Part shown: positions 9,747-39,629 of the stretch, in pieces
How positions within the stretch are numbered: position 1 is the first letter of the stretch
Layout of the letters: the number at the start of each line of letters is the position of its first letter
DNA from: Alcaligenaceae bacterium
GTDB taxonomy: Bacteria > Pseudomonadota > Gammaproteobacteria > Burkholderiales > Burkholderiaceae_B
Direction of reading: 5' to 3'
Length of the DNA stretch: 40,628 bases
Assembly (NCBI GenBank): GCA_947378965.1
Contig: CANCMG010000033.1
Span: forward strand, 1-40,628
Program-made: the position numbers and the translations under genes
Notes under the pieces: generated by a model
Told to the model about the DNA's origin: nothing
Database searches by the model: none
What the model saw: only the letters and a program-made list of their open reading frames with translations

Positions 9747-10889
9747 ATGCCTGATTTGTTCACGCCCTATACGCTTAAGGGTGTCACGCTACGCAATCGC
9801 ATTGCGATGTCGCCGATGACGATGTATCGGTCTGAGCCAGACGGGAAGATGAATGATTTCCACCTGATGCTGATGGGCTCGCGTGCGGCCGGCGGCTTTG
9901 GCTTGGTCTTCCCCGAACAAATCGCCATCACTCCCGACGGCCGCACCAGCACCTCGTGTGCCGGACTGTGGGAGGACGAGCAGATCGAAAGCATGGCCCG
10001 TGTGGTCAGGATGATCAAGGACATGGGTGCGGTCCCGGCCATTCAACTAGGCCATACGGGTCGCAAGGGAAGCGAGCAAAAGCCTTGGGAAGGCAAGCTG
10101 CAAATCGCCCCGGACCATCCCGATGGCTGGCAGGTGCGCGGTCCCTCGCCCATTCCATATGGCGGGCGCTTCCCCTATGCCGTGCAAGAACTCACCGTTG
10201 ACGAGATTCATGCGTTGCACCGAGCCTATGCGGCCGCCGCAAAACGGGCCATCGCGGCTGGCTTCGAGTGGCTCGAGATGCACTTCGCGCACGGTTATCT
10301 CGGCGCGAGTTTTTTCTCACCCCTGGCGAATCAACGTACGGATGCTTACGGCGGAACGCTCGAGAATCGGCTGCGATTTCATCGCGAGGCGCTGGATGCG
10401 GTGCGTGCCGTTTGGCCTGAACGCCTACCGCTCACGATGCGTCTGGTGACTGATGATTACCACGAAGACGGCGTGCAGTTTGATGAAGCGGTCTGGGCGG
10501 TCGCGCAGTTAAAGGACCACGGCCTTGATCTGGCGGACTTGAGCGTCGGTCTTAACACCGATAGCATGCGCGACCCTCCATTCTCTCGCGCGGCTTTCAT
10601 GGTAGAGCGGGGCAGTCGCGTCCGTCGTGAGGTCGGAATTCCGGTGGCGGTTAGCTGGAACCTAGGGCAGCCTGCAGTGGCGAACCAGGTGATACGCGAA
10701 GAACTCGTCGACTTGGTGTTTCTCGGGCGACCAGCACTTGCTAACCCGCATTGGCCAATCTGGGCGGCGCGTGAGCTTGCTCACGAAGACCCTTTTTCGC
10801 TGCTGCCGCGCGACTGGTCGTGGTGGCTGAAGAACCGGCCGGGCTCCGAAAATTCGCACGGCTGGCCACCGCCAGCGATCGCCCGCTGA
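9747..10889 (+). CDS. Old Yellow Enzyme family NADH:flavin oxidoreductase
   Basis: A 380-residue FMN-dependent TIM-barrel enzyme. LRNRIAMSPM near the N-terminus, QLGHTGRKG, HFAHGYLGASF and NQRTDAYGGTLENRLRF give the FMN and active-site framework, with a His pair and catalytic Tyr in HGYL. Most YqjM-like members have Cys in SPMCMY; here it is Thr (SPMTMY), which would change flavin tuning. These enzymes reduce activated C=C bonds or open cyclic terpenoid or xenobiotic substrates. It has no operon partner. A deletion relic of this same gene lies at 12345-12417. Confidence 0.9.
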   Translation: MPDLFTPYTLKGVTLRNRIAMSPMTMYRSEPDGKMNDFHLMLMGSRAAGGFGLVFPEQIAITPDGRTSTSCAGLWEDEQIESMARVVRMIKDMGAVPAIQLGHTGRKGSEQKPWEGKLQIAPDHPDGWQVRGPSPIPYGGRFPYAVQELTVDEIHALHRAYAAAAKRAIAAGFEWLEMHFAHGYLGASFFSPLANQRTDAYGGTLENRLRFHREALDAVRAVWPERLPLTMRLVTDDYHEDGVQFDEAVWAVAQLKDHGLDLADLSVGLNTDSMRDPPFSRAAFMVERGSRVRREVGIPVAVSWNLGQPAVANQVIREELVDLVFLGRPALANPHWPIWAARELAHEDPFSLLPRDWSWWLKNRPGSENSHGWPPPAIAR

Positions 10890-11023
10890 GGGCGCATGCT
10901 CAGGCGGCTATATGCGCTTAGCCTATGGGGTACGATGGGTAAAAAGTCTCAAAGTTCAAGTCCTCGAAACCACGGACTATGAGTTTGCTTAGCCATAACT
11001 TGTCTTAACGACATTGGACATCC

Positions 11024-11992
11024 ATGCGCCTTTTCATTCAAAAATATTTGATTCTGGTTGTCTTAATTTTACTACCTGCTTGTGCGTTTTCATCTCAGCG
11101 TCTTGACGCCCCCAACGTGGATGTTGGCCTCCATGTCAATCGTATTCAATCCGTGTCGCCCAGGCTGGGTACATTTACTGCCGACATCACGATTTGGTTT
11201 CGTTGGAAAGACCACTCACTCAATCCGTATGAAACTTTCAGGATTAAGAATGCAAAGGTCGACTATAAAAAAGTGTCCTATGAGTCAAAGTTACTCGATG
11301 GCGTAACAAACTACGCACACATTGACATCATCGCCACGTTTTCCACCCTTTGGGATGCGAAAAATTTTCCCTTCGACAAACAAGTCTTGAAAATGGAGTT
11401 TGAGGAGGATATTTCCGAAACGGATCAAGTTCGATACAGAAGCGACGATGTCAACATGACAGTGAATCCTAACCTAGCTATTCAAGGGTGGAGAGTTGCC
11501 GATATAAAATACGACGTGGTAGAGAATAATTACAATAGTAATTTCGGGAATACATCACATTCAAGAGACAAGAAATTTCTGACTACTCAATTCAATTACG
11601 AACTTGAAATAGAACGAAGCTCACGACTCATTGGTTTGAAAATCTTAGTTTCTCCGATTATTGCAATGCTAATTTTTTGCTTTATCTTGCGCATGCCGGC
11701 GACAGAATCACCGAGATTTTTTTTGGCATCAGGTGCTATTTTTGCCATTGTTACGTCGCACTATTTAATACTTGGTCAAATACCTGACTCTGAACAAATT
11801 TCATTCGCAGAGAAAGTTGTGATTTGTGGATTAGTTCAATCTCTTATTTATTTGATCGTGACTATCTTATCTTGGGAAGCAGCAAAAAATGGAGACATTG
11901 CTCGATCTAAAAATTATGATCAACAAGTATTGCGATTGCTAATAGTTTTCGACTTAATTATTGTTGCTTATGGAATCCTGACGTGCTTGTGA
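11024..11992 (+). CDS. Prokaryotic pentameric ligand-gated ion channel homologue
   Basis: A 322-residue protein: signal peptide (1-24), an extracellular beta-rich domain, then four membrane helices (about 203-222, 230-250, 263-284, 302-321). This is the Cys-loop receptor layout. The extracellular domain has FTADITIWFRWKD (51-63), FPFDKQ (115-120, the position equivalent to the Cys loop, without cysteines as in GLIC and ELIC) and GWRVADI. M1 keeps a Pro (LVSPIIAML). The gene is much more AT-rich than the oxidoreductase before it, hinting at transfer. It should form a cation- or anion-selective pentamer in the inner membrane. The ligand is unknown and no partner gene is co-transcribed. Confidence 0.8.
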   Translation: MRLFIQKYLILVVLILLPACAFSSQRLDAPNVDVGLHVNRIQSVSPRLGTFTADITIWFRWKDHSLNPYETFRIKNAKVDYKKVSYESKLLDGVTNYAHIDIIATFSTLWDAKNFPFDKQVLKMEFEEDISETDQVRYRSDDVNMTVNPNLAIQGWRVADIKYDVVENNYNSNFGNTSHSRDKKFLTTQFNYELEIERSSRLIGLKILVSPIIAMLIFCFILRMPATESPRFFLASGAIFAIVTSHYLILGQIPDSEQISFAEKVVICGLVQSLIYLIVTILSWEAAKNGDIARSKNYDQQVLRLLIVFDLIIVAYGILTCL

Positions 11993-12016
11993 AGACTTAT
12001 CAACTTAATTGAGCGG

Positions 12017-12070
12017 CTAGAGCATGGGCTCTGTATGTTCTTTTCTACGACCCAAGAGTTCAATGTTCAT
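12017..12070 (-). other. 17-codon small ORF, copy A of a peptide leader
   Basis: ATG 12070 opens MNIELLGRRKEHTEPML, with TGGAG 6 bases upstream as a ribosome-binding site. The start region and upstream leader repeat at 12235-12290, where another small ORF begins with the same five codons. After MNIEL the two differ. This looks like a truncated copy. Seen: the repeat and the ORF. Translation is unproven. Confidence 0.35.
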
Positions 12071-12266
12071 CGCAAACTCCAAGGTTGAGTACCCAAGCCC
12101 AAGTGGGTGTGGATTACCGGTCAGCAATGGCTAACACAGACGTCCACTAGGTATGTTCATCACTCCCCCTTGCGCACCACCCGCAGCTAGCTCCAGTGCA
12201 TCATCAGTAACATCCAGTACAACGACTTCGTCAAGTTCAATGTTTATAGCAGAATCCAAGGTTGAG
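12058..12266. repeat. Pair of direct repeats carrying a small-peptide leader
   Basis: 12058-12089 and 12235-12266 match at 28 of 32 bases, and patchy similarity runs on upstream on the minus strand (CATTGCT-AC, GTAA-CC, CTCAACCTTGGA). The unit covers the ribosome-binding site and first codons of small ORFs A and B, 177 bases apart. It lies in the 444-base gap 11993-12436. Confidence 0.6.
12131..12247 (-). CDS. 38-residue small ORF with double-glycine-like leader, copy B
   Basis: The frame reads NIELDEVVVLDVTDDALEL, then AAGGAQGGVMNIPSGRLC and a stop. An acidic amphipathic first half (LDVTDDALELAAGG) followed by Gly-Gly and a short tail ending in Cys is the look of a ribosomally made peptide precursor. 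The first codon is ATA where copy A has ATG, so the start is mutated or non-standard, and the gene may be dead. No maturation or export gene is adjacent. I do not recognise the family. Confidence 0.4.
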   Translation of the reverse strand: MNIELDEVVVLDVTDDALELAAGGAQGGVMNIPSGRLC

Positions 12267-12300
12267 GGGGTTACTCGTTAGCAATGACGAACAAGTTTTA

Positions 12301-12320
12301 AGTGCATTTTAAAATGCACT
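12301..12320. promoter_or_regulatory. Perfect 20-base palindrome
   Basis: AGTGCATTTTAAAATGCACT is fully self-complementary without a loop, which favours a dimeric-repressor operator over a terminator. It lies 54 bases upstream of the copy B peptide ORF. It is also downstream of the Bug gene that ends at 12437. Confidence 0.55.
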
Positions 12321-12344
12321 AATGTTATCAATGAGCCACTCTTG

Positions 12345-12417
12345 TATGGCGGGCGCTTCCAATATGCCGTGCATGCCGTTTGGCCTGAGCGCCTACCGCT
12401 CACGATGCGTCTGGTGA
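12345..12417 (+). pseudogene. Deletion relic of the Old Yellow Enzyme gene
   Basis: 12345-12373 matches 10158-10186 (27 of 29) and 12374-12417 matches 10406-10449 (43 of 44). The 219 bases between, exactly 73 codons, are gone at the junction CCGTGCA/TGCCGTT. Nothing else of the gene is present, so it is a fragment of a second, nearly identical copy. Confidence 0.85.
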
Positions 12418-12436
12418 ACTGCCTTGGGTGTTTGAG

Positions 12437-13423
12437 TTAGTCTAAGGAAATTTTAGCATTCTTAACGACATTTCCCACTCGGATATTTTCAGACTGTACA
12501 AAATCGGTCAGTTGTTTTTGATTCATAAAATTAGGGTCAAGACCGCCTCTCGTCAACTCTTCACGCACCTTGGGATTTTCAACGACAGTCTTTAACGCCG
12601 CAGTCAAGGTGTCGCCACGGTCAGCAGGAATATTCGCAGGTCCCAATACGCCCATCCACGAAATCCAGGATTGCACACCCTGCTCAGCCATTGTCATGAG
12701 CTGTGGTGCGGCAGCCAGTCTATTTTGACTCGAAACACCCAGGATCTTTGCTTTTCCTGCGTTGTGATGAGGCAACGCAACCACCGCAGGTACAAAGACT
12801 GAGTCAACCTGTCCTCCCAGAACCGCTGTCATAGCGGGTGCCGCGCCTTGAAAAGGAACATGCAACATCTTACTGTCGGTCTGGGCCAAGAACATTTCAG
12901 TCGCTAGGTGGCTTGAGCTGCCGATTCCCCAAGATGAGTAAGTCATCTTCGAGGCAGGATCTTTGCCCTTCTGGATAAACTGTTTTAAATCTCCTGAATT
13001 ATTTTGGGGATTCACAACTAGAACCAAAGGGAAAAACCCGACCATACCAATGTTCGTGAAGTCCTTATTCACATCATAGCGAGCTGTCTTGGGAGAAACC
13101 AGTGGACTCACAATATAGGAGTCGGCAATGAAAACAATCGTGTAACCATCCGGCGCTGCTTTGACCAGCATATCGGTACCGATCAGACCTGTTGCTCCGG
13201 CTCGATTTTCAACGACAACGGGCTGTCCCAAGACATCTGACAGGTGCTTAGCAACGATGCGCCCCAAGACATCTGAGCCACCGCCAGGGGGCCAAGGGAT
13301 AATCATTCTGATGGGTTTGTCAGGGTAGCTGGCTAAGGCAAGGCTACTCAATCCTGTTGTTAAAACGATCAAAACGGCTTGCAGTAAACGCAACGCCCAA
13401 AGTCTGAAAATTTGCAAGATCAT
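12437..13423 (-). CDS. Bug-family (TctC) periplasmic solute-binding protein
   Basis: Signal sequence (LQAVLIVLTTGLSSLALASYP), then MIIPWPPGGGSDVLGRIV, PDGYTIVF, HVPFQGAAPAMTAVLGGQV and a normal Bug C-terminus. The open frame extends to GTG 13459, but AAGGGAG at 13424-13430 sits directly before ATG 13423 and 6 bases before TTG 13417, so the real start is one of those two; TTG has the better spacing. The gene is monocistronic. On the same strand, just upstream, lies the decayed tail of another Bug gene. The ligand is unknown. Confidence 0.9.
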   Translation of the reverse strand: MILQIFRLWALRLLQAVLIVLTTGLSSLALASYPDKPIRMIIPWPPGGGSDVLGRIVAKHLSDVLGQPVVVENRAGATGLIGTDMLVKAAPDGYTIVFIADSYIVSPLVSPKTARYDVNKDFTNIGMVGFFPLVLVVNPQNNSGDLKQFIQKGKDPASKMTYSSWGIGSSSHLATEMFLAQTDSKMLHVPFQGAAPAMTAVLGGQVDSVFVPAVVALPHHNAGKAKILGVSSQNRLAAAPQLMTMAEQGVQSWISWMGVLGPANIPADRGDTLTAALKTVVENPKVREELTRGGLDPNFMNQKQLTDFVQSENIRVGNVVKNAKISLD

Positions 13424-13480
13424 CTCCCTTTTTCTTATTGATGAAATATGCGGGCCCACGTTAGCAGACCCGCTAGAACT

Positions 13481-13702
13481 TTAGTCGGCTTTAATGCCGG
13501 CGGCGTTGACTGTCGCTTCCCACCGATCATATTCTGTTGTCAAAAACTGACCGAACTGCTGTTGTCAAAAACTGACCGAACTGCGTTGGATCGAGGATTT
13601 TAATAATCAAATCACCTTTAGTGAGTGTTTCCTGAAGACTAGGCTCTTTTCCGGCCTGTATCAAGGCTTTCGCAAAAGTCGCTCTCGGGAGTCCAACTTT
13701 TC
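13481..13702 (-). pseudogene. 3' relic of a Bug-family gene
   Basis: Reading leftward, KALIQAGKEPSLQETL and KILDPTQFGQFLTT, then in another frame EYDRWEATVNAAGIKAD and a TAA at 13483-13481. Together they make a textbook Bug C-terminus. The frame break is caused by a 25-base tandem duplication at 13534-13583. Nothing of the first 240 residues remains, because the next gene's promoter begins there. Confidence 0.85.
13534..13583. repeat. 25-base perfect tandem duplication
   Basis: Two identical 25-base units (13534-13558 and 13559-13583, beginning CTGTTGTCAAAAACTGACCG). The length is not a multiple of three, so it shifts the frame of the Bug relic. Perfect identity suggests a recent event. Confidence 0.95.
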
Positions 13703-13804
13703 CGCCGCACCCCCAACTGTCAATTTTTGACTGGCGTCAACAACTTCCAAACGTGGATACACTATTGTTGTCGTATTTGGCCTAACCTTAAATGTAAAGA
13801 GAGT

Positions 13805-17366: not shown

Positions 17367-18350
17367 CTAATTCGCTTTAAGCTTTAGTTCGCGGATGATG
17401 TTTCCCCAGCGCTGATATTCGCTCTGTACGAATTTCGTGGCGGCGTCCGGCGGGCCGTTGACGATTTCAGTGATGCCGGCGTCACGCAGGCGGTCTTGCA
17501 CCTCTTGTACCTTGAGGGCTTTGTCGAATTCTTCATGCAAGCGTTGCACAATCGCGGCCGGTGTTTTTGCCGGTGCAAACACCACATACCAGGTCATGAC
17601 GGTATAGCCCTTTAACCCCGACTCATCGAGCGTCGGGATGTCTGGTGCAATCGGCGAACGCTTAATGCCGGTCTGGCCGACCGCGCGCACGCGGCCAGCG
17701 CGCACCTGTGCCAGCGCTTCTGGCATCGCGATCGTAGCGAATTCAACCTGGCCGCCGATCACGTCTTGTAACGCCTGAGGCCCGCCCCGATAGGGCACAT
17801 GCAGCATTTCAACGCCGGCCATCATCCGCATCATTTCGCTGGCGAGATGCGATGAGCTGCCGATGGCCGAGCTCGAGAAACGCACCTCACCAGGGCGCGC
17901 TTTGGCGAGATTGATCAGGTCAGTGATGCTACGCACCGGTAGTGCATTATTCACGACCAGCAGCAGCGGCGCGTCGCCGACGTACGAGATGCCGACGAAA
18001 TCCTCTATCCGGTAATTGATCTTTTCAAACAGGGTCGGATTAATGGCGATAGCAACCGGACTATAGAGCAACGTGTGGCCATCAGGATCAGCTTTGGCGA
18101 CGAAATCGAAAGCGATGTTGCCGCCAGCCCCCGGTCGGTTCTCGACCATAAAACTCTGGCCGGTGTTCTCAGATAATTTCTGCGCGAGGATGCGGGCTGT
18201 GGTGTCTGCGCCACCGCCCGCCGTGAGCGGGATCACCAACCGAACGGGGCGCACCGACGATTTCTGAGCGTAGGCACTCGAAGCACCAAACGCCAGCGCG
18301 ACGCAGGCCGCAAGTAATGAGGTGACGGTCATACGGCGAAAGCAATTCAT
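17367..18350 (-). CDS. Bug-family (TctC) periplasmic solute-binding protein
   Basis: 327 residues from ATG 18350, which follows AGAGGGG by 5 bases. The signal peptide ends around SSAYAQK. Landmarks: LVIPLTAGGGADTTARIL, DPDGHTLLYSP, HVPYRGGPQALQDVIGGQV, IPTLDESG. The gene starts 60 bases after the quinone oxidoreductase stop on the same strand, so they likely form an operon. The ligand is unknown. Confidence 0.92.
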   Translation of the reverse strand: MNCFRRMTVTSLLAACVALAFGASSAYAQKSSVRPVRLVIPLTAGGGADTTARILAQKLSENTGQSFMVENRPGAGGNIAFDFVAKADPDGHTLLYSPVAIAINPTLFEKINYRIEDFVGISYVGDAPLLLVVNNALPVRSITDLINLAKARPGEVRFSSSAIGSSSHLASEMMRMMAGVEMLHVPYRGGPQALQDVIGGQVEFATIAMPEALAQVRAGRVRAVGQTGIKRSPIAPDIPTLDESGLKGYTVMTWYVVFAPAKTPAAIVQRLHEEFDKALKVQEVQDRLRDAGITEIVNGPPDAATKFVQSEYQRWGNIIRELKLKAN

Positions 18351-18410
18351 CAGCACCCCTCTGCAGTCTGCGCGACTGTGATTCGTCAATAATATGACGT
18401 CAGAAAAAAA

Positions 18411-19385
18411 TCAGTCAAACCGGATGGCGACTTTACCCAGCAAGGTGTTTTGTTCGACGTATTGCTTGGCAGCTGGCAATTCATCAAACGAAAACGTGCG
18501 GTCGATCACTGGCACGATGCGACCATCGGTAATGGCGGGCATGACCTCGCGCTCGAAGCCACGTTGCGCAACCGCCCGCATCGCCGTCGAGAGGGGTGCA
18601 TTCGACAGCCCAAAAATCTGTAGGCGTTTGCCATGCACCGGCTCAATATCGAGCCCAGTCAGCATCTGCCCATCAACATAGCCGACAACCGCCAGGCGGC
18701 CGAAATCAGTGAGTGCCTCAAGACATCCTGCAAACGCGCTGCCGCCCACCAGATTCACAGCGAGCCCGACACCGGCGCCGCCTGTGATCTGCCGCGCTTG
18801 CTCAGCAAAGTTTTCGCCACGCGTGACTATGCCGGCGTCGAGGCCGAGCTCCTTCAAGCGCGCAAGCTTTTCTGCGGAACCGGAGGTACCGATGACCTTA
18901 GCGCCGCAAATCTTTGCGATCTGTAACGCGGCGACACCAACGCCAGAAGATGCTCCGGCAATCACCACCCACTCACCGGCTTGCACACGACCGAATTGCA
19001 GGATGGCCTCGTAGGCGGTGATATAGGCGATCGGAATCACGGCGGCCTGTTCCCAATTCAGACAAGCCGGAACCGGCGTGAGCAAGGTCGCTTCGACAGC
19101 CACGTATTCAGAAAAACAGCCTTTGGCGCGAAACATGACGCGGTCGCCGACCGCAACCCCGCGTACATTGGCACCGATTGCTTCGACCTCACCGGCGCCA
19201 TCGACGCCGGCGGGACGCCCGCCCTTGGCGCTATGCAGTTTAATGGCGCCCATAATGTCGCCGCGATTAATGCTGGTGGCACGCACCCGCACCAGCACCT
19301 GGTCAGGGCCGGGAGTGGGTATTGGCAGCTCGCGCAGTTCAAGCTCGGTACCGGTCGCGGTTTTGTTGATCCAGTAAGATTTCAT
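18411..19385 (-). CDS. Zinc-independent quinone oxidoreductase (MDR superfamily)
   Basis: A 324-residue NADPH:quinone reductase-like enzyme. The N-terminal GroES-like domain lacks the zinc-binding cysteines of alcohol dehydrogenases. The Rossmann domain has VVIAGASSGVGVAALQIAK (about 140-158), the AxxGxxG nucleotide loop. The C-terminal PVIDRTFSFDELPAAKQYVE is typical of QOR and crotonyl-CoA-reductase-like members. Substrates are quinones or alpha,beta-unsaturated carbonyls. It is first in a probable operon with the Bug gene at 17367, suggesting a role in breaking down the imported acid. Confidence 0.92.
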   Translation of the reverse strand: MKSYWINKTATGTELELRELPIPTPGPDQVLVRVRATSINRGDIMGAIKLHSAKGGRPAGVDGAGEVEAIGANVRGVAVGDRVMFRAKGCFSEYVAVEATLLTPVPACLNWEQAAVIPIAYITAYEAILQFGRVQAGEWVVIAGASSGVGVAALQIAKICGAKVIGTSGSAEKLARLKELGLDAGIVTRGENFAEQARQITGGAGVGLAVNLVGGSAFAGCLEALTDFGRLAVVGYVDGQMLTGLDIEPVHGKRLQIFGLSNAPLSTAMRAVAQRGFEREVMPAITDGRIVPVIDRTFSFDELPAAKQYVEQNTLLGKVAIRFD

Positions 19386-19534
19386 TAGAAGGCTCTCTAA
19401 ATATTCGACCTAGGTCGTGATTTCAATGTCAATGTCGGGCCCTTAGGGCACGGTGTTAGATGTTCTGCTTGACCAATTACCCCATGGGAAAACAAGAGTC
19501 CCAGGAGAAAAAAATACAGTCCCGAAAGGTTAAC

Positions 19535-19574
19535 ACGCAGGTCTCTGATTCGTGTCAAGGTCGGGAAGCCAAAA
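19535..19574 (+). pseudogene. tRNA 3'-end fragment (third copy)
   Basis: 34 of 40 bases match 8711-8750 (ACGCAGGTC, TTCG, AGGTC, AGCCAAAA), keeping the terminal GCCA but with the T-stem disrupted. The following GAACATATGGTTTGCAG also resembles the sequence after the second copy (9706-9722). It lies in the 277-base gap between the quinone oxidoreductase and the FGE-fold gene; nothing else is seen there. Confidence 0.6.
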
Positions 19575-19662
19575 ATATCAGATCCGTTCTGAACATATGG
19601 TTTGCAGGCTTGCTCTGGTCCCGTCGTTAGCACTTCGCTCAACGGGCGCGTTGGGTCATCTC

Positions 19663-20490
19663 TCAATTTTCTTTTGACGAACGCGCGCAGCGAAACCCAA
19701 TATTGTGATGACCCGCTTTGGGATTGCGAGATAAGTTTCTGCCTCGTTGGGTTGTCGTGAGCTCGTCTTCGCTTGAATCATGGCCGCCACCGCGAGTCGA
19801 GCGAACTGGGCCAGGATTTTGCTGTTCTCTTTCGTCGTCAGCGCTGTAGGGGTAGGGTCGATAGGCGCTAGCGACCCATTCCCATTGATTGCCAGATAGG
19901 TCTAAAACTCCGTACGGGCTTGCTCCTTCAGGAAACGCATCAACCGGTGCCGACGAGTTATAAGGTGCGCCGTACAGTGCCCGCTTGTTGTTCGGCCTTG
20001 AATTGCCCCACGGATATTTTCTGCCATCTGTTCCGCGTGCGGCTTTCTCCCATTCTGCCTCGGTCGGTAAGCGCTTGTTCAACCAAGTGCAGTAATCACG
20101 AGCACCTACCCAACTCACTTCATTGACTGGGTGCGATGCGTAACCCACGTCTGCTTGCCATAGCGAGTTATGCTGATGAATTCTGGCATCGCGATCATCG
20201 TCGTCGTAAAACGATTCACCGAGATGATTTTTTAAGCCGCGCGTATTTAGAAATTTCGCAAAATCAGCATTGCTGACCGGAAGCACATCCATCAAAAATG
20301 ATTTCACAAAAACCCGATGCTCTGGTTTTTCATCATCGGGACCATTATTAGAGCCCATCATGAAATGGCTCTCTGGAACATAGACCATCTTGTTGAATGA
20401 GCTGGCATCGATGGTAGTTGTTTGGGCTTGGCTGATTGCGGTGAGCACAAACAACGTCAGCAAAAAGAATAGCGTTCTAGTGCTAGTCAT
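19663..20490 (-). CDS. Secreted SUMF1/FGE-sulfatase-fold protein
   Basis: 275 residues from ATG 20490 (MTSTRTLFFLLTLFVLTAIS, signal peptide ending at SQAQ). The longer frame to 20556 adds residues in front of the signal. The FGE-sulfatase fold is clear: YVPESHFMMGSNNGPDDEKPEHRVFV, VNEVSWVGARDYCTWLNKRLPTEAEWEKAARG, YGVLDLSGNQWEWV, and IGFRCARS at the end. The fold occurs in formylglycine-generating enzyme, EgtB C-termini and many lipoprotein or ligand-binding proteins. The paired active-site cysteines of true FGE are not evident, so sulfatase activation is doubtful. Periplasmic role unknown. Confidence 0.85.
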   Translation of the reverse strand: MTSTRTLFFLLTLFVLTAISQAQTTTIDASSFNKMVYVPESHFMMGSNNGPDDEKPEHRVFVKSFLMDVLPVSNADFAKFLNTRGLKNHLGESFYDDDDRDARIHQHNSLWQADVGYASHPVNEVSWVGARDYCTWLNKRLPTEAEWEKAARGTDGRKYPWGNSRPNNKRALYGAPYNSSAPVDAFPEGASPYGVLDLSGNQWEWVASAYRPYPYSADDEREQQNPGPVRSTRGGGHDSSEDELTTTQRGRNLSRNPKAGHHNIGFRCARSSKEN

Positions 20491-20568
20491 ATTTTTGAAC
20501 CTGCAGACGACAGAGTGATAGGCTTGGTGAATGGAAGGGAACTTAAGACTCAGCAAAATATCATAAGT

Positions 20569-20608
20569 TAACCCAAAGACCTCGGTCGAAGTCTTTGATT
20601 TTGGGTTA
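20569..20608. promoter_or_regulatory. Nested inverted repeat in a divergent promoter
   Basis: TAACCCAAAGAC (20569-20580) can pair with GTCTTT (20591-20596) or with TTTGGGTTA (20600-20608), giving two alternative stems around CTCGGTCGAA. It lies 36 bases before the VOC gene and 78 bases before the FGE-fold gene. An operator or leader attenuator is possible. Confidence 0.4.
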
Positions 20609-20644
20609 CGCTGCTTATTCTCAACAACAATTTTCGGAGTCGAA

Positions 20645-21028
20645 ATGTTTAGTCACGTAATGGTAGGTGCAAACGATTTAGAAGCGTCGCGAAAATTCTA
20701 TGACGCAGTTTTTGGTACCTTGGGTATTGCGCCAGGTGTCATCAACCGAGATGTTCGTTACTTCTATCGCACGCCCACCGGTGTTTTTTCGTTTACGCTG
20801 CCTATTGATAACAAGGCTGCGACTCCAGCAAACGGCGGTACGATCGGATTTTCGGCACAATCTTCAGAACAAGTTGATGCGTTTCACGCCGCTGCACTTG
20901 CAAATGGCGGCACAACCTGCGAAGACCCACCTGGCTACCGCGAAGGCCCCGCTGGTAAGTTGTATCTGGCGTATGTGCGTGATCCAATCGGCAACAAGAT
21001 TTGCGCGATGTTGAGAGTGCCGAAGTAA
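20645..21028 (+). CDS. VOC (glyoxalase/dioxygenase) superfamily protein
   Basis: A 127-residue single-domain vicinal oxygen chelate protein. HVMVGANDLEASRKFYDAVF opens the first beta-alpha-beta-beta-beta module with a metal-ligand His at residue 4, and YLAYVRDPIGNKICAM closes the second. This small subgroup includes glyoxalase I-like and antibiotic-resistance-like members, and its substrate cannot be assigned. A GST follows on the same strand after 146 bases, so a shared detoxification role is possible. Confidence 0.85.
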   Translation: MFSHVMVGANDLEASRKFYDAVFGTLGIAPGVINRDVRYFYRTPTGVFSFTLPIDNKAATPANGGTIGFSAQSSEQVDAFHAAALANGGTTCEDPPGYREGPAGKLYLAYVRDPIGNKICAMLRVPK

Positions 21029-21073
21029 GTGTTGCGTGGGCGGCAGAGAACTTTAAACATGCGCGCCCATTAA

Positions 21074-21099
21074 GCTGCTCAGTGGAGTCGTTGAGCAGC
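21074..21099 (+). terminator. Hairpin after the VOC gene
   Basis: GCTGCTCA (21074-21081) and TGAGCAGC (21092-21099) form a perfect 8-base stem with a 10-base loop, followed by ATCGTTTTC. The T-run is short, so termination may be weak. Confidence 0.45.
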
Positions 21100-21174
21100 A
21101 TCGTTTTCTGGTAACTGAGAATTCAATCCGAAGCAGTACGATCAGGCAAAAATACCTTCAAGAGGAAACCATCT

Positions 21175-37462: not shown

Positions 37463-38701
37463 TCAGTCTCTTGCAAGCCGCAAGCCCGTCAGTTGCCAAC
37501 GCGCGTACGTTGGGAAAAAATTGCGATACGTGTTTCGCGAATGTCCGGCGGATGTATAAGCCGAGCTGCCTCGTAGCACCATTTGGTTGACCATGAACTT
37601 GCCGTTGTACTCGCCAGCGATACCGCCCCAAGGCTTGTAGCCGGGGTAGGGGCTGTAGTGACTGCTCGTCCATTGCCATACTTTGCCAAATAAATCTGTT
37701 GCGGCGTGTTCTGCGGCAAACGCTTCCCATTCGAACTCGGTCGGCAGGCGAGCGCCGGCATATTTTTTTATATTTTCAGAGGCCCAGCGCGCAAAGGCAT
37801 CGGCTTCGAAGTAGCTGATATGGGCGACTGCTTCTTGCGGAGCAAGAGGATTTTGACCATAAAGGGAAAATTGGTCATATGAGCCGTCTGGTTTAGATAC
37901 CCAATACATCGGCGCCGAAATATTTTGTGTTTTTACCCAGGCCCAGCCCGCATCCAGCCACCAGCGCGCGTCTTGGTAGCCCTTGCCCTTTATAAACAGT
38001 AGCCAGTCAGCATTTGTGACTAATGTACTGCCCAGAGCATGTGCAGAGTTCAAGGCAGTGTGCCTTGGGCCTTCGTTGTCAAAATGAAATTCACCGCCTT
38101 GGTTTCCGATCTCAACCGAGCCAGATTTGCCCTCGATCCATTTAAACTTTTCAGGCGAAGAGGATGATGGCTTGTCACGTAAAAAATAACGTGGCAGTAA
38201 AGAATTGTGAGAAAAAAGATGTTGGATGTCGGTTAATAAAAGCTCTTGGTGTTGTTGTTCGTGATGGATGCCAAGTGTAATCAGCCACCGCAGCTCGGCT
38301 GTATGGTTGTCTTTGAGTAGGGCGTTGATTCGTGCATCAATATTGGCGCGCCACTCAAGCACTTCGACGAATGTTGGTCGGGTGAGTAAGCCGCGCTGAT
38401 TACGGGGATGCTTGTCCCCGACACCGTTGTAATAACTATTGAACAAAACAGCAAACTGCGGATTCCAGAACTTAAAATTATTTTCGTAAGGCTTTAGCAC
38501 CATGACTTCGTAAAACCAAGTCACGTGGGCCAGATGCCACTTGGCCGGGCTTGCATCATCCATTGATTGCGCCTGACAATCTTCGGGGCTCAGCGGTTCG
38601 GCTAAACGCGTTGAATAAAGTCTTGACGCGTTAAATTCAGTCAAAAGACTTTCAACTGAGGCTTCGATTGGCTGGCGATTACTGGGCATAAATGAGTGCA
38701 T
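37463..38701 (-). CDS. egtB: Ergothioneine biosynthesis protein EgtB (sulfoxide synthase)
   Basis: 412 residues. The N-terminal DinB-like domain carries the iron-binding histidines: HLAHVTWF (His56/59) and IHHEQQHQE (His147, His151). The C-terminal FGE-sulfatase domain has ISYFEADAFARWA, ARLPTEFEWEAFA, GKVWQWTSSHYSPYPG and GQ/RGSSAYT. EgtB joins trimethylhistidine to a cysteine-type thiol using O2. It follows egtD with a 23-base overlap, so they are co-expressed. ATG 38701 or ATG 38689 may be used. No egtA, egtC or egtE is nearby. Confidence 0.93.
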   Translation of the reverse strand: MHSFMPSNRQPIEASVESLLTEFNASRLYSTRLAEPLSPEDCQAQSMDDASPAKWHLAHVTWFYEVMVLKPYENNFKFWNPQFAVLFNSYYNGVGDKHPRNQRGLLTRPTFVEVLEWRANIDARINALLKDNHTAELRWLITLGIHHEQQHQELLLTDIQHLFSHNSLLPRYFLRDKPSSSSPEKFKWIEGKSGSVEIGNQGGEFHFDNEGPRHTALNSAHALGSTLVTNADWLLFIKGKGYQDARWWLDAGWAWVKTQNISAPMYWVSKPDGSYDQFSLYGQNPLAPQEAVAHISYFEADAFARWASENIKKYAGARLPTEFEWEAFAAEHAATDLFGKVWQWTSSHYSPYPGYKPWGGIAGEYNGKFMVNQMVLRGSSAYTSAGHSRNTYRNFFPTYARWQLTGLRLARD

Positions 38702-39629
38702 AGTATTGTCGTGGATCTGTCCAAATTTTTAGCGCCTGAAAGCCAGATTGGTTCAACAAGTGTTGAATAGAGGCGATCGTATATTTGTGCGAATTTTCAG
38801 TGTGTATTAATTCGCCTTTCTTGAAAACGCGTTGCTTGCCGTGCCATGCAACGGTGGTGTCACGCAGTGCTTCAAGATAAAGTTCGACGCGTTCTTTTGA
38901 CTGATTGACTAGCACTTTATGGCAAAAATGGCTGACGTCAAAATTCGAATCGATGATGGCGTTGACAGAGCGAAGAATATTCAAATTGAAGGCAGCAGTG
39001 ACTTTCAGGGGATCATCGTAGGCGACCTGCAATACGTGGTCTGCCTTCATGAGATCAACCCCGATCAGCAAACCGCCACCAAGTGCTTCACGTTTGATTT
39101 GTGTCAGCAAGGCTTCGGCCTCAGTCGGTAAAAAATTACCAATGCTTGAGCCTGGGTAAAAAAACGTTCGAGGTGCTTGCGTGATGGTGTCAGGTAATTC
39201 GAGCGTTTGTGAAAAATCCATGCCGATCCCGTACATGGGGATCTGGGCATACTGACTTTGCAATTTTTCTAAGGATTCTTTCAGGTAGTCAACTGAAATG
39301 TCGATGGCAACATACGCTGACGGCGTAATCGATTCAAAGAGGTGGGCAGCCTTCTTACAATCGCCGGCGCCTAAATCAATCAAAACAGGATTTTTGCCGA
39401 TTGCAGCAGCAATTTCGCTTTTGTATTGTTTCAGCAAACTCGTTTCAACCGCGGTTGGGTAGTACTCTGGTACGAGTGTGATGGCGGTAAAGAGATGAGC
39501 ACCTAGAGCATCGTATAAAAACTTAGGCGAGATCGATGCCTTTTCGGCCAATAACCCCGCTTCAATCTCAGAATACAGAGCAGACGGTTGTATGACTTGG
39601 TGGTTTTCAAGAAAAACAGGTTTTTGCAT
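38679..39629 (-). CDS. egtD: L-histidine N-alpha-methyltransferase EgtD
   Basis: 316 residues of the DUF2260/EgtD family. ALGAHLFTAITLVPEYYPTAVE is the conserved N-terminal segment; the SAM loop is IDLGAGDCKKA (84-94). FFYPGSSIGNFLPTEA and YDDPLKVTAAFNLNIL are EgtD signatures. It trimethylates histidine to hercynine, the first step of ergothioneine synthesis, and is first in the egtDB operon. It is divergent from a DUF427 gene across 118 bases that hold their promoters. Confidence 0.94.
   Translation of the reverse strand: MQKPVFLENHQVIQPSALYSEIEAGLLAEKASISPKFLYDALGAHLFTAITLVPEYYPTAVETSLLKQYKSEIAAAIGKNPVLIDLGAGDCKKAAHLFESITPSAYVAIDISVDYLKESLEKLQSQYAQIPMYGIGMDFSQTLELPDTITQAPRTFFYPGSSIGNFLPTEAEALLTQIKREALGGGLLIGVDLMKADHVLQVAYDDPLKVTAAFNLNILRSVNAIIDSNFDVSHFCHKVLVNQSKERVELYLEALRDTTVAWHGKQRVFKKGELIHTENSHKYTIASIQHLLNQSGFQALKIWTDPRQYYALIYAQ

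Follow-up and report, generated by a model that had tools for sequence, protein, structure and literature searches.

Channel gene and genomic setting

The window, a stretch of 40,628 nucleotides from an Alcaligenaceae bacterium, carries on its plus strand an intact open reading frame with an ATG start (11024..11992, +), which encodes a protein of 322 amino acids assigned below to the pentameric ligand-gated ion channels (pLGICs). The hydropathy plot has an N-terminal peak at aa 3–21 and further peaks at aa 203–221, 232–250, 265–283, and 302–320. The first peak corresponds to a probable signal peptide (∼aa 1–22; 11024..11089, +) with a predicted cleavage site, followed by an extracellular, periplasmic ligand-binding domain (∼aa 23–200; 11090..11623, +) delimited by profile alignment to the ELIC extracellular domain. 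Hydropathy and profile alignment together place the helices M1 (∼aa 201–222; 11624..11689, +), M2 (∼aa 229–252; 11708..11779, +), M3 (∼aa 261–284; 11804..11875, +), and M4 (∼aa 299–320; 11918..11983, +). The pore helix M2 carries Phe at 2', Gly at 6', Phe at 9', Thr at 13', Tyr at 16', and Gly at 20', and the inner pore-mouth motif Glu(-3') Ser(-2') Pro(-1') Arg(0') lies at 11705..11716 (+), in a register taken from profile alignments. Cysteines occur only at positions 20, 219, 268, and 321, with none in aa 21–218, and the extracellular domain lacks the disulphide-closed loop of eukaryotic Cys-loop receptors. A first-pass annotation had described a signal peptide, a cysteine-free extracellular domain, and four membrane helices here, and hydropathy and the cysteine positions bear this layout out.

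The upstream flank is formed by a flavin oxidoreductase gene (Oxidored_FMN, PF00724; 9747..10889, +), whose protein is 97–99% identical in six congeners (one a partial match), and the contig is therefore considered native to the genus. In congener G006, window positions 10961–13754 (2,794 bases) are replaced by 23 bases between 10960 and 13755, and the absent stretch contains the channel gene together with a gene for a TctC-type receptor (12437–13459, PF03401). DNA of the TctC-type receptor gene sits upstream of the oxidoreductase in G007, and the site has thus undergone more than one rearrangement. The oxidoreductase of G027 is followed instead by ∼700 bases containing two small open reading frames that resemble a toxin-antitoxin module by eye, and the same frames follow the oxidoreductase in G004. 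Absence of the channel gene from the same place in congeners makes acquisition likely; the position behind the oxidoreductase is thus likely a variable cargo site at which the host gained the gene, with insertion as the presumed direction.

Downstream of the channel gene are decayed copies of a dispersed small-peptide gene repeat (12057..12266, -; found in genus genomes, with the coding reading made by eye) and a decayed oxidoreductase piece (12345..12417, +), in which two internal stretches, 93–94% identical to 10158–10186 and 10396–10449, are joined by a deletion. The setting had earlier been given as lying between an oxidoreductase and a peptide-ORF region; the upstream part of that description holds, and the downstream frames are these decayed repeat copies and the decayed oxidoreductase piece. 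A scan for promoters and terminators stayed at chance level, and none of its three promoter-like sites precedes the channel gene.

Counting the host, 17 of the 32 genus genomes contain the small-peptide repeat, often in arrays (G013 and G018 match only through the oxidoreductase piece and are not counted). Read by eye, its genes share a conserved, double-glycine leader, vary at their ends, and look like a precursor-peptide family, with tandem arrays in G030:C14 (5.8–8.7 kb), G005:C22 (987–988 kb), G004:C65, G006:C42, and G031:C2 and C8. An integron integrase (G005:C22:973879-974823; 508.6 bits), the sole match over the family cut-off in the 32 genus genomes, lies ∼12 kb from the G005 array. 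An integron cassette was considered for the repeat and dropped, as the repeat reads by eye as a minus-strand small coding sequence with no attC core seen by eye; in G005, a link between array and integrase is conceivable. Elsewhere in the window, at least six genes within 3020–25628 resemble tripartite-tricarboxylate-type periplasmic receptors by eye, that at 12437–13459 being confirmed by its PF03401 match, and adjacent EgtB- and EgtD-like genes of ergothioneine biosynthesis were recognized by eye at 37463–39629.

The channel gene has a GC content of 0.392, compared with 0.526 ± 0.045 for 31 other open reading frames taken as genes (z -3.0), and shows the lowest GC and the poorest codon fit of the 32 window frames, which were picked by hand from ORF lists. 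The AT-rich composition, unlike that of the neighbours, noted in the first-pass annotation is confirmed by these values.

Family membership and distribution

Relatives were collected by scanning a genome collection of 84,980 species with two peptide patterns, which gave 72 loci in a search that was not exhaustive; the same collection scanned with the window sequence alone gave no locus. The loci include Azospirillum, Piscinibacter, Rubrivivax, Myxococcota, Planctomycetota, Acidobacteriota, Bacteroidota, Cyanobacteriota, and Nitrososphaerota. Two short matches (L129 and L130) were not extracted, and four truncated or short sequences (L085, L098, L122, and L124) were excluded from the resulting alignment (A4; 66 relatives and the window protein, 67 rows), from which the profile and all residue counts derive. 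G35, D54, W58, F59, P116, D118, and P254 are invariant in all 67 rows, two of them (P116 and D118) within the Pro-loop FPFD (F115 P116 F117 D118), which has the FPxD form expected between beta6 and beta7, and the pre-M1 Arg198 is shared by 64 rows.

The window protein matches the Pfam neurotransmitter-gated channel ligand-binding domain PF02931 (31.1 bits; cut-off 26) and scores 37.7 bits with NCBIfam NF033918 (LGIC_1), far below the curated cut-off of 500. Searched alone against PDB sequences, its best matches are 9ftg (E 0.33) and 6v4a, DeCLIC (E 0.39), so the protein is very divergent, and its link to solved structures rests on its relatives. The A4 profile gave 311 distinct PDB matches at E <= 0.001; among the best 60 of these 311, ELIC (2vl0) ranks highest with E 2.2e-37, GLIC reaches ∼1e-33, and ELIC/GLIC chimeras bearing GABA-A or glycine-receptor pore domains fall between 1e-33 and 1e-37. 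The ELIC match spans profile positions 22–318 of 322 and so takes in the beta-sandwich binding domain as well as the pore domain with its four helices. Because the profile matches ELIC and GLIC over both domains, the window protein is placed in the pLGIC family (Pro-loop receptor superfamily), a membership that is well supported by sequence and upholds the earlier proposal of a bacterial pLGIC homologue. Although very divergent, it appears to be a true relative of neurotransmitter-receptor-type channels, encoded by a foreign-looking gene, and it extends a known superfamily by one member; it is not a novel kind of channel.

The nearest relative found is L059, a protein from an uncultured Burkholderiales metagenome-assembled genome (MAG) with 34–36% identity by alignment, whose gene has a GC content of 0.36 on a contig of 0.40. 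Identity to the Azospirillum relatives is 23–29%, and a tblastn search of plasmid records gave 10 matches (8 Azospirillum, 2 Streptomyces) at 21–28%. A 109-row tree pairs the window protein with L059 at an SH-aLRT of 100 and sets the two, with a support of only 81, beside a 25-row group composed chiefly of Azospirillum and Piscinibacter, plus Rubrivivax and one Verrucomicrobia bin. The tree is a quick search under LG+G4; several branches, the window protein's included, are long, and no weight is placed on the deep forks.

The gene is sporadically distributed. A single-protein search matched 2 of 61 genomes, namely the host and, weakly (6.9e-4), G050, with none of the 31 congeners matched; in a sample of the order, the same kind of search matched 4 of 399 genomes, host included. 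With a profile built from the window protein plus L059, the host was the only match among 268 family genomes, and 21 of 369 class genomes matched at E <= 0.001, again counting the host (best other match, 6.7e-41). A broader family profile matched 45 of 398 genomes across the phylum, host included, some of them through fusion proteins. The view that bacterial members are rare is thus only partly borne out. A viral origin was rejected, as tblastn against 50,697 phage records gave no match at E 0.01 and viral contigs yielded nothing in three pattern-based scans.

Gene neighbourhoods and fusion proteins

Clustering of 518 neighbour open reading frames from 70 loci found no family common to the near relatives examined beyond Azospirillum; antisense frames from GC-rich DNA confound the largest cluster, so a partner may have been missed. 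L059 adjoins genes for a porin and a family 3 solute-binding protein, neither of which flanks the window gene. With no partner gene common to the near relatives, gene context lends no support to a function.

Several other pLGIC loci have neighbours of their own kind. In L091:2673-5909, L094:523-3828, and L098:1585-4772, a protein of 708–713 amino acids whose C-terminal half resembles pLGICs (E 4e-19 to 8e-21) is encoded directly upstream of the pLGIC gene. Pfam recognizes a chemoreceptor-type PDC sensor domain in the upstream proteins of L091 and L094 (dCache_1 reaching its cut-off in L094 but not in L091), and these three gene pairs possibly encode a two-subunit sensor channel. At L045:4415-7925 (-) of genome G476, a gene for a pLGIC fused to a periplasmic binding protein (PBP) and a plain pLGIC gene overlap by at most 23 bases, counted from the first possible start, which hints at heteromeric channels. 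Two pLGIC genes stand tail to tail in genome G565 (L044:1240-3375). A distant relative on a plasmid of Azospirillum sp. B510 (L008:3782-8750) adjoins annotated CheW, MCP four-helix-bundle, and mechanosensitive channel genes, a neighbourhood hinting at a link with chemotaxis. The pLGIC of L087, recorded as a Klebsiella pneumoniae MAG, clusters with Myxococcota in the tree, and the record is possibly mislabelled or a mixed bin.

The host genome itself encodes a second protein with a pLGIC-type domain. At G000:C7 ∼18179–21151 (L043:3180-6152, +), a 991-amino-acid protein combines Peripla_BP_6 (aa 85–424), a pLGIC-type binding domain (aa 476–665; i-E 1.6e-11 with the A4 profile), and an MscS beta-domain (aa 815–883). 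Peripla_BP_6, a pLGIC-type domain, membrane helices, and an MscS beta-domain are present in all 10 examined proteins of this type, at least two of them incomplete frames (L043, L058, L196–L200, L203, L204, and L205; chosen by their match to the pLGIC profile, with an eleventh frame, L201, excluded because it is cut by a contig end), and an MscS-like pore helix was recognized by eye. The fusion occurs in 2 of 32 genus genomes. Profile-profile comparison of its binding domain with A4 gave a probability of 99.4 over 116 columns; searches of PDB sequences with the fusion middle domain, by profile and by a single member, found no pLGIC. Fusion of pLGICs with periplasmic-binding-protein-like domains is known (PMC9221113), and no description of an MscS fusion of this type was found in the literature searched. 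The fusion suggests a ligand-gated MscS-type channel, and such a channel built on a receptor-type domain may be more surprising than the window channel.

Pore mouth, ligand pocket, and interpretation

Arg231 of the window protein is aligned opposite the arginine of the ELIC stretch SER and that of VPAR in the GABA-A alpha1 pore domain of a chimera, and it is therefore numbered 0'. Arginine stands at 0' in 66 of the 67 rows, the window protein included. An Asp or Glu at -1' or -2' is found in 56 rows; the 11 rows without one include those of the window protein and L059. PMC12637682 marks the -1' acid of ELIC as its selectivity filter, and PMC3119659 describes this acidic ring as conserved in all cation-selective members. 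The window protein has no ring of the ELIC/GLIC cation-pore type, with Ser at -2' and Pro at -1'; with respect to the A[R/K] motif of anion-selective pLGICs at -1'/0', it has Pro-Arg and not Ala-Arg. As the usual acidic ring is missing and Pro-Arg is present, selectivity cannot be carried over from ELIC, and equally the missing acid does not show that the pore is not cation-selective.

The ligand pocket deviates in the same pair of proteins. ELIC residues Y38, I79, E131, and F133 contact ligands (PMC9674596), and in the A4-profile alignment window positions 56, Glu127, and Asp129 lie opposite Tyr38, Glu131, and Phe133, so that one of the three mapped amine contacts (T56, E127, D129) is kept. 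Position 56 in loop D (Thr56; 11189..11191, +) is Tyr in 65 of the 67 rows, and the two exceptions, both Thr, are the window protein and L059. Similarly, loop-C position 187 (Thr187; 11582..11584, +) is Tyr or Phe in 64 rows but Thr in the window protein and Ser in L059. The loop-B acid Glu127 (11402..11404, +) and Tyr170 are kept (Glu in 66 and Tyr in 63 of the 67 rows), and the pocket thus retains the loop-B acid and one loop-C tyrosine and has lost two aromatics. Owing to this loss in both proteins, the ligand cannot be inferred from ELIC; it is probably a different one, an ELIC-like amine being less likely.

The observed basis for an overall reading consists of the open reading frame, the homology of both domains, the conserved coupling residues, the sporadic distribution, the odd composition, and the absence of the gene in congeners. 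With high confidence, we read the gene as encoding a periplasm-facing pLGIC subunit that would couple a ligand to an M2-lined pore and that was probably acquired as cargo. The protein is most likely a homopentameric ligand-gated channel, with pentamer, gating, ligand, and function all predicted from sequence. Its binding domain would face the periplasm, where a small molecule may bind between subunits, and binding would be transmitted via the FPFD loop, the pre-M1 arginine, and the M2-M3 loop to open the pore; the host lineage would have taken in the gene at the variable site behind the flavin oxidoreductase gene.

The nature of the pore can be read in different ways. An ordinary cation-selective channel like ELIC and GLIC, with the pore-guarding acid shifted to -3' (Glu228) and everything else in the pLGIC reading kept, is rated slightly above even. 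In its favour, Glu occupies -3' in the window protein and in L059, and -4' in six of the nine remaining rows that lack the -1'/-2' acid. Most of the alignment (56 of 67 rows) carries such an acid, and the two prokaryotic channels discussed in PMC3119659, ELIC and GLIC, are cation-selective; against this, the filter position E-1' of ELIC (PMC12637682) holds no acid, nor does -2', the filter position of GLIC, and Arg at 0' directly follows Pro. A more tentative reading, to which we give roughly one chance in five, is that the window protein and L059 form a bacterial sublineage with an anion-passing or charge-indiscriminate pore and a pocket for a ligand that differs from ELIC's primary amines. 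If this were true, an anion-type pore mouth, with Pro-Arg and no acidic ring, would exist in bacteria independently of the animal glycine and GABA-A receptors; no bacterial anion-selective pLGIC was found in the literature searched, although one may be in print.

The bulky residues at 2' (Phe), 9' (Phe), and 16' (Tyr) might make for a narrow or silent pore, and together with the presence of the gene in one of 268 family genomes, the decayed pieces in the downstream DNA, and promoter-like sites at chance level, they speak for a receptor-like protein that no longer conducts or for an unexpressed passing acquisition that will decay. This is judged improbable, as an intact frame with conserved structural and coupling residues speaks against long neutrality. 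The weak single-sequence link to the PDB could be taken to mean a chance open frame or an unrelated membrane protein with four helices, but the profile match over both domains refutes this reading, PF02931 lies above its cut-off, 66 relatives align, and the tree pairs the protein with L059; its probability is negligible. Sporadic in occurrence, encoded by a single gene, unusual in both pore mouth and pocket, and with no partner in evidence, the window subunit is a simple test object for the residues that determine charge selectivity and ligand class. A 2016 survey (PMC4795631) states that no pLGIC from a unicellular organism had a known biological role, and the window protein by itself does not settle that natural role.

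Among known systems, ELIC (the Erwinia/Dickeya ligand-gated ion channel, 2vl0) is the best profile match, yet it is no close relative. The two share the two-domain plan, the Cys-less Pro-loop, the pre-M1 arginine, the loop-B acid equivalent to Glu131, the arginine at 0', and the proline closing the M2-M3 loop; the window protein differs in lacking the equivalents of Tyr38 and of Glu at -1', in placing Asp129 opposite the ligand-contacting Phe133, and in having Phe where ELIC has Leu at 9'. GLIC, the proton-gated channel of Gloeobacter, which has Glu at -2' and Asn at 0', shares both domains by profile (E ∼1e-33) but differs in the pore mouth, where the window protein has Ser and Arg, respectively. 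DeCLIC (6v4a) and 9ftg, the best single-sequence PDB matches, share an ASG stretch in M2, but their chains of 609 and 642 amino acids carry an N-terminal domain (PMC9897478) that is absent from the window protein. The animal anion channels (GlyR and GABA-A) are alike in having Arg at 0' without an acid at -1' or -2', and differ in that the window protein has no Cys-loop and has Ser-Pro-Arg instead of the metazoan A[R/K] motif (PMC4795631). Among the bacterial relatives, the aligned Azospirillum protein differs by its Tyr at position 56, a loop-C Tyr, and an Asp at -2', whereas L059 shares Thr56, the missing -1'/-2' acid, and the loop-C loss with the window protein.
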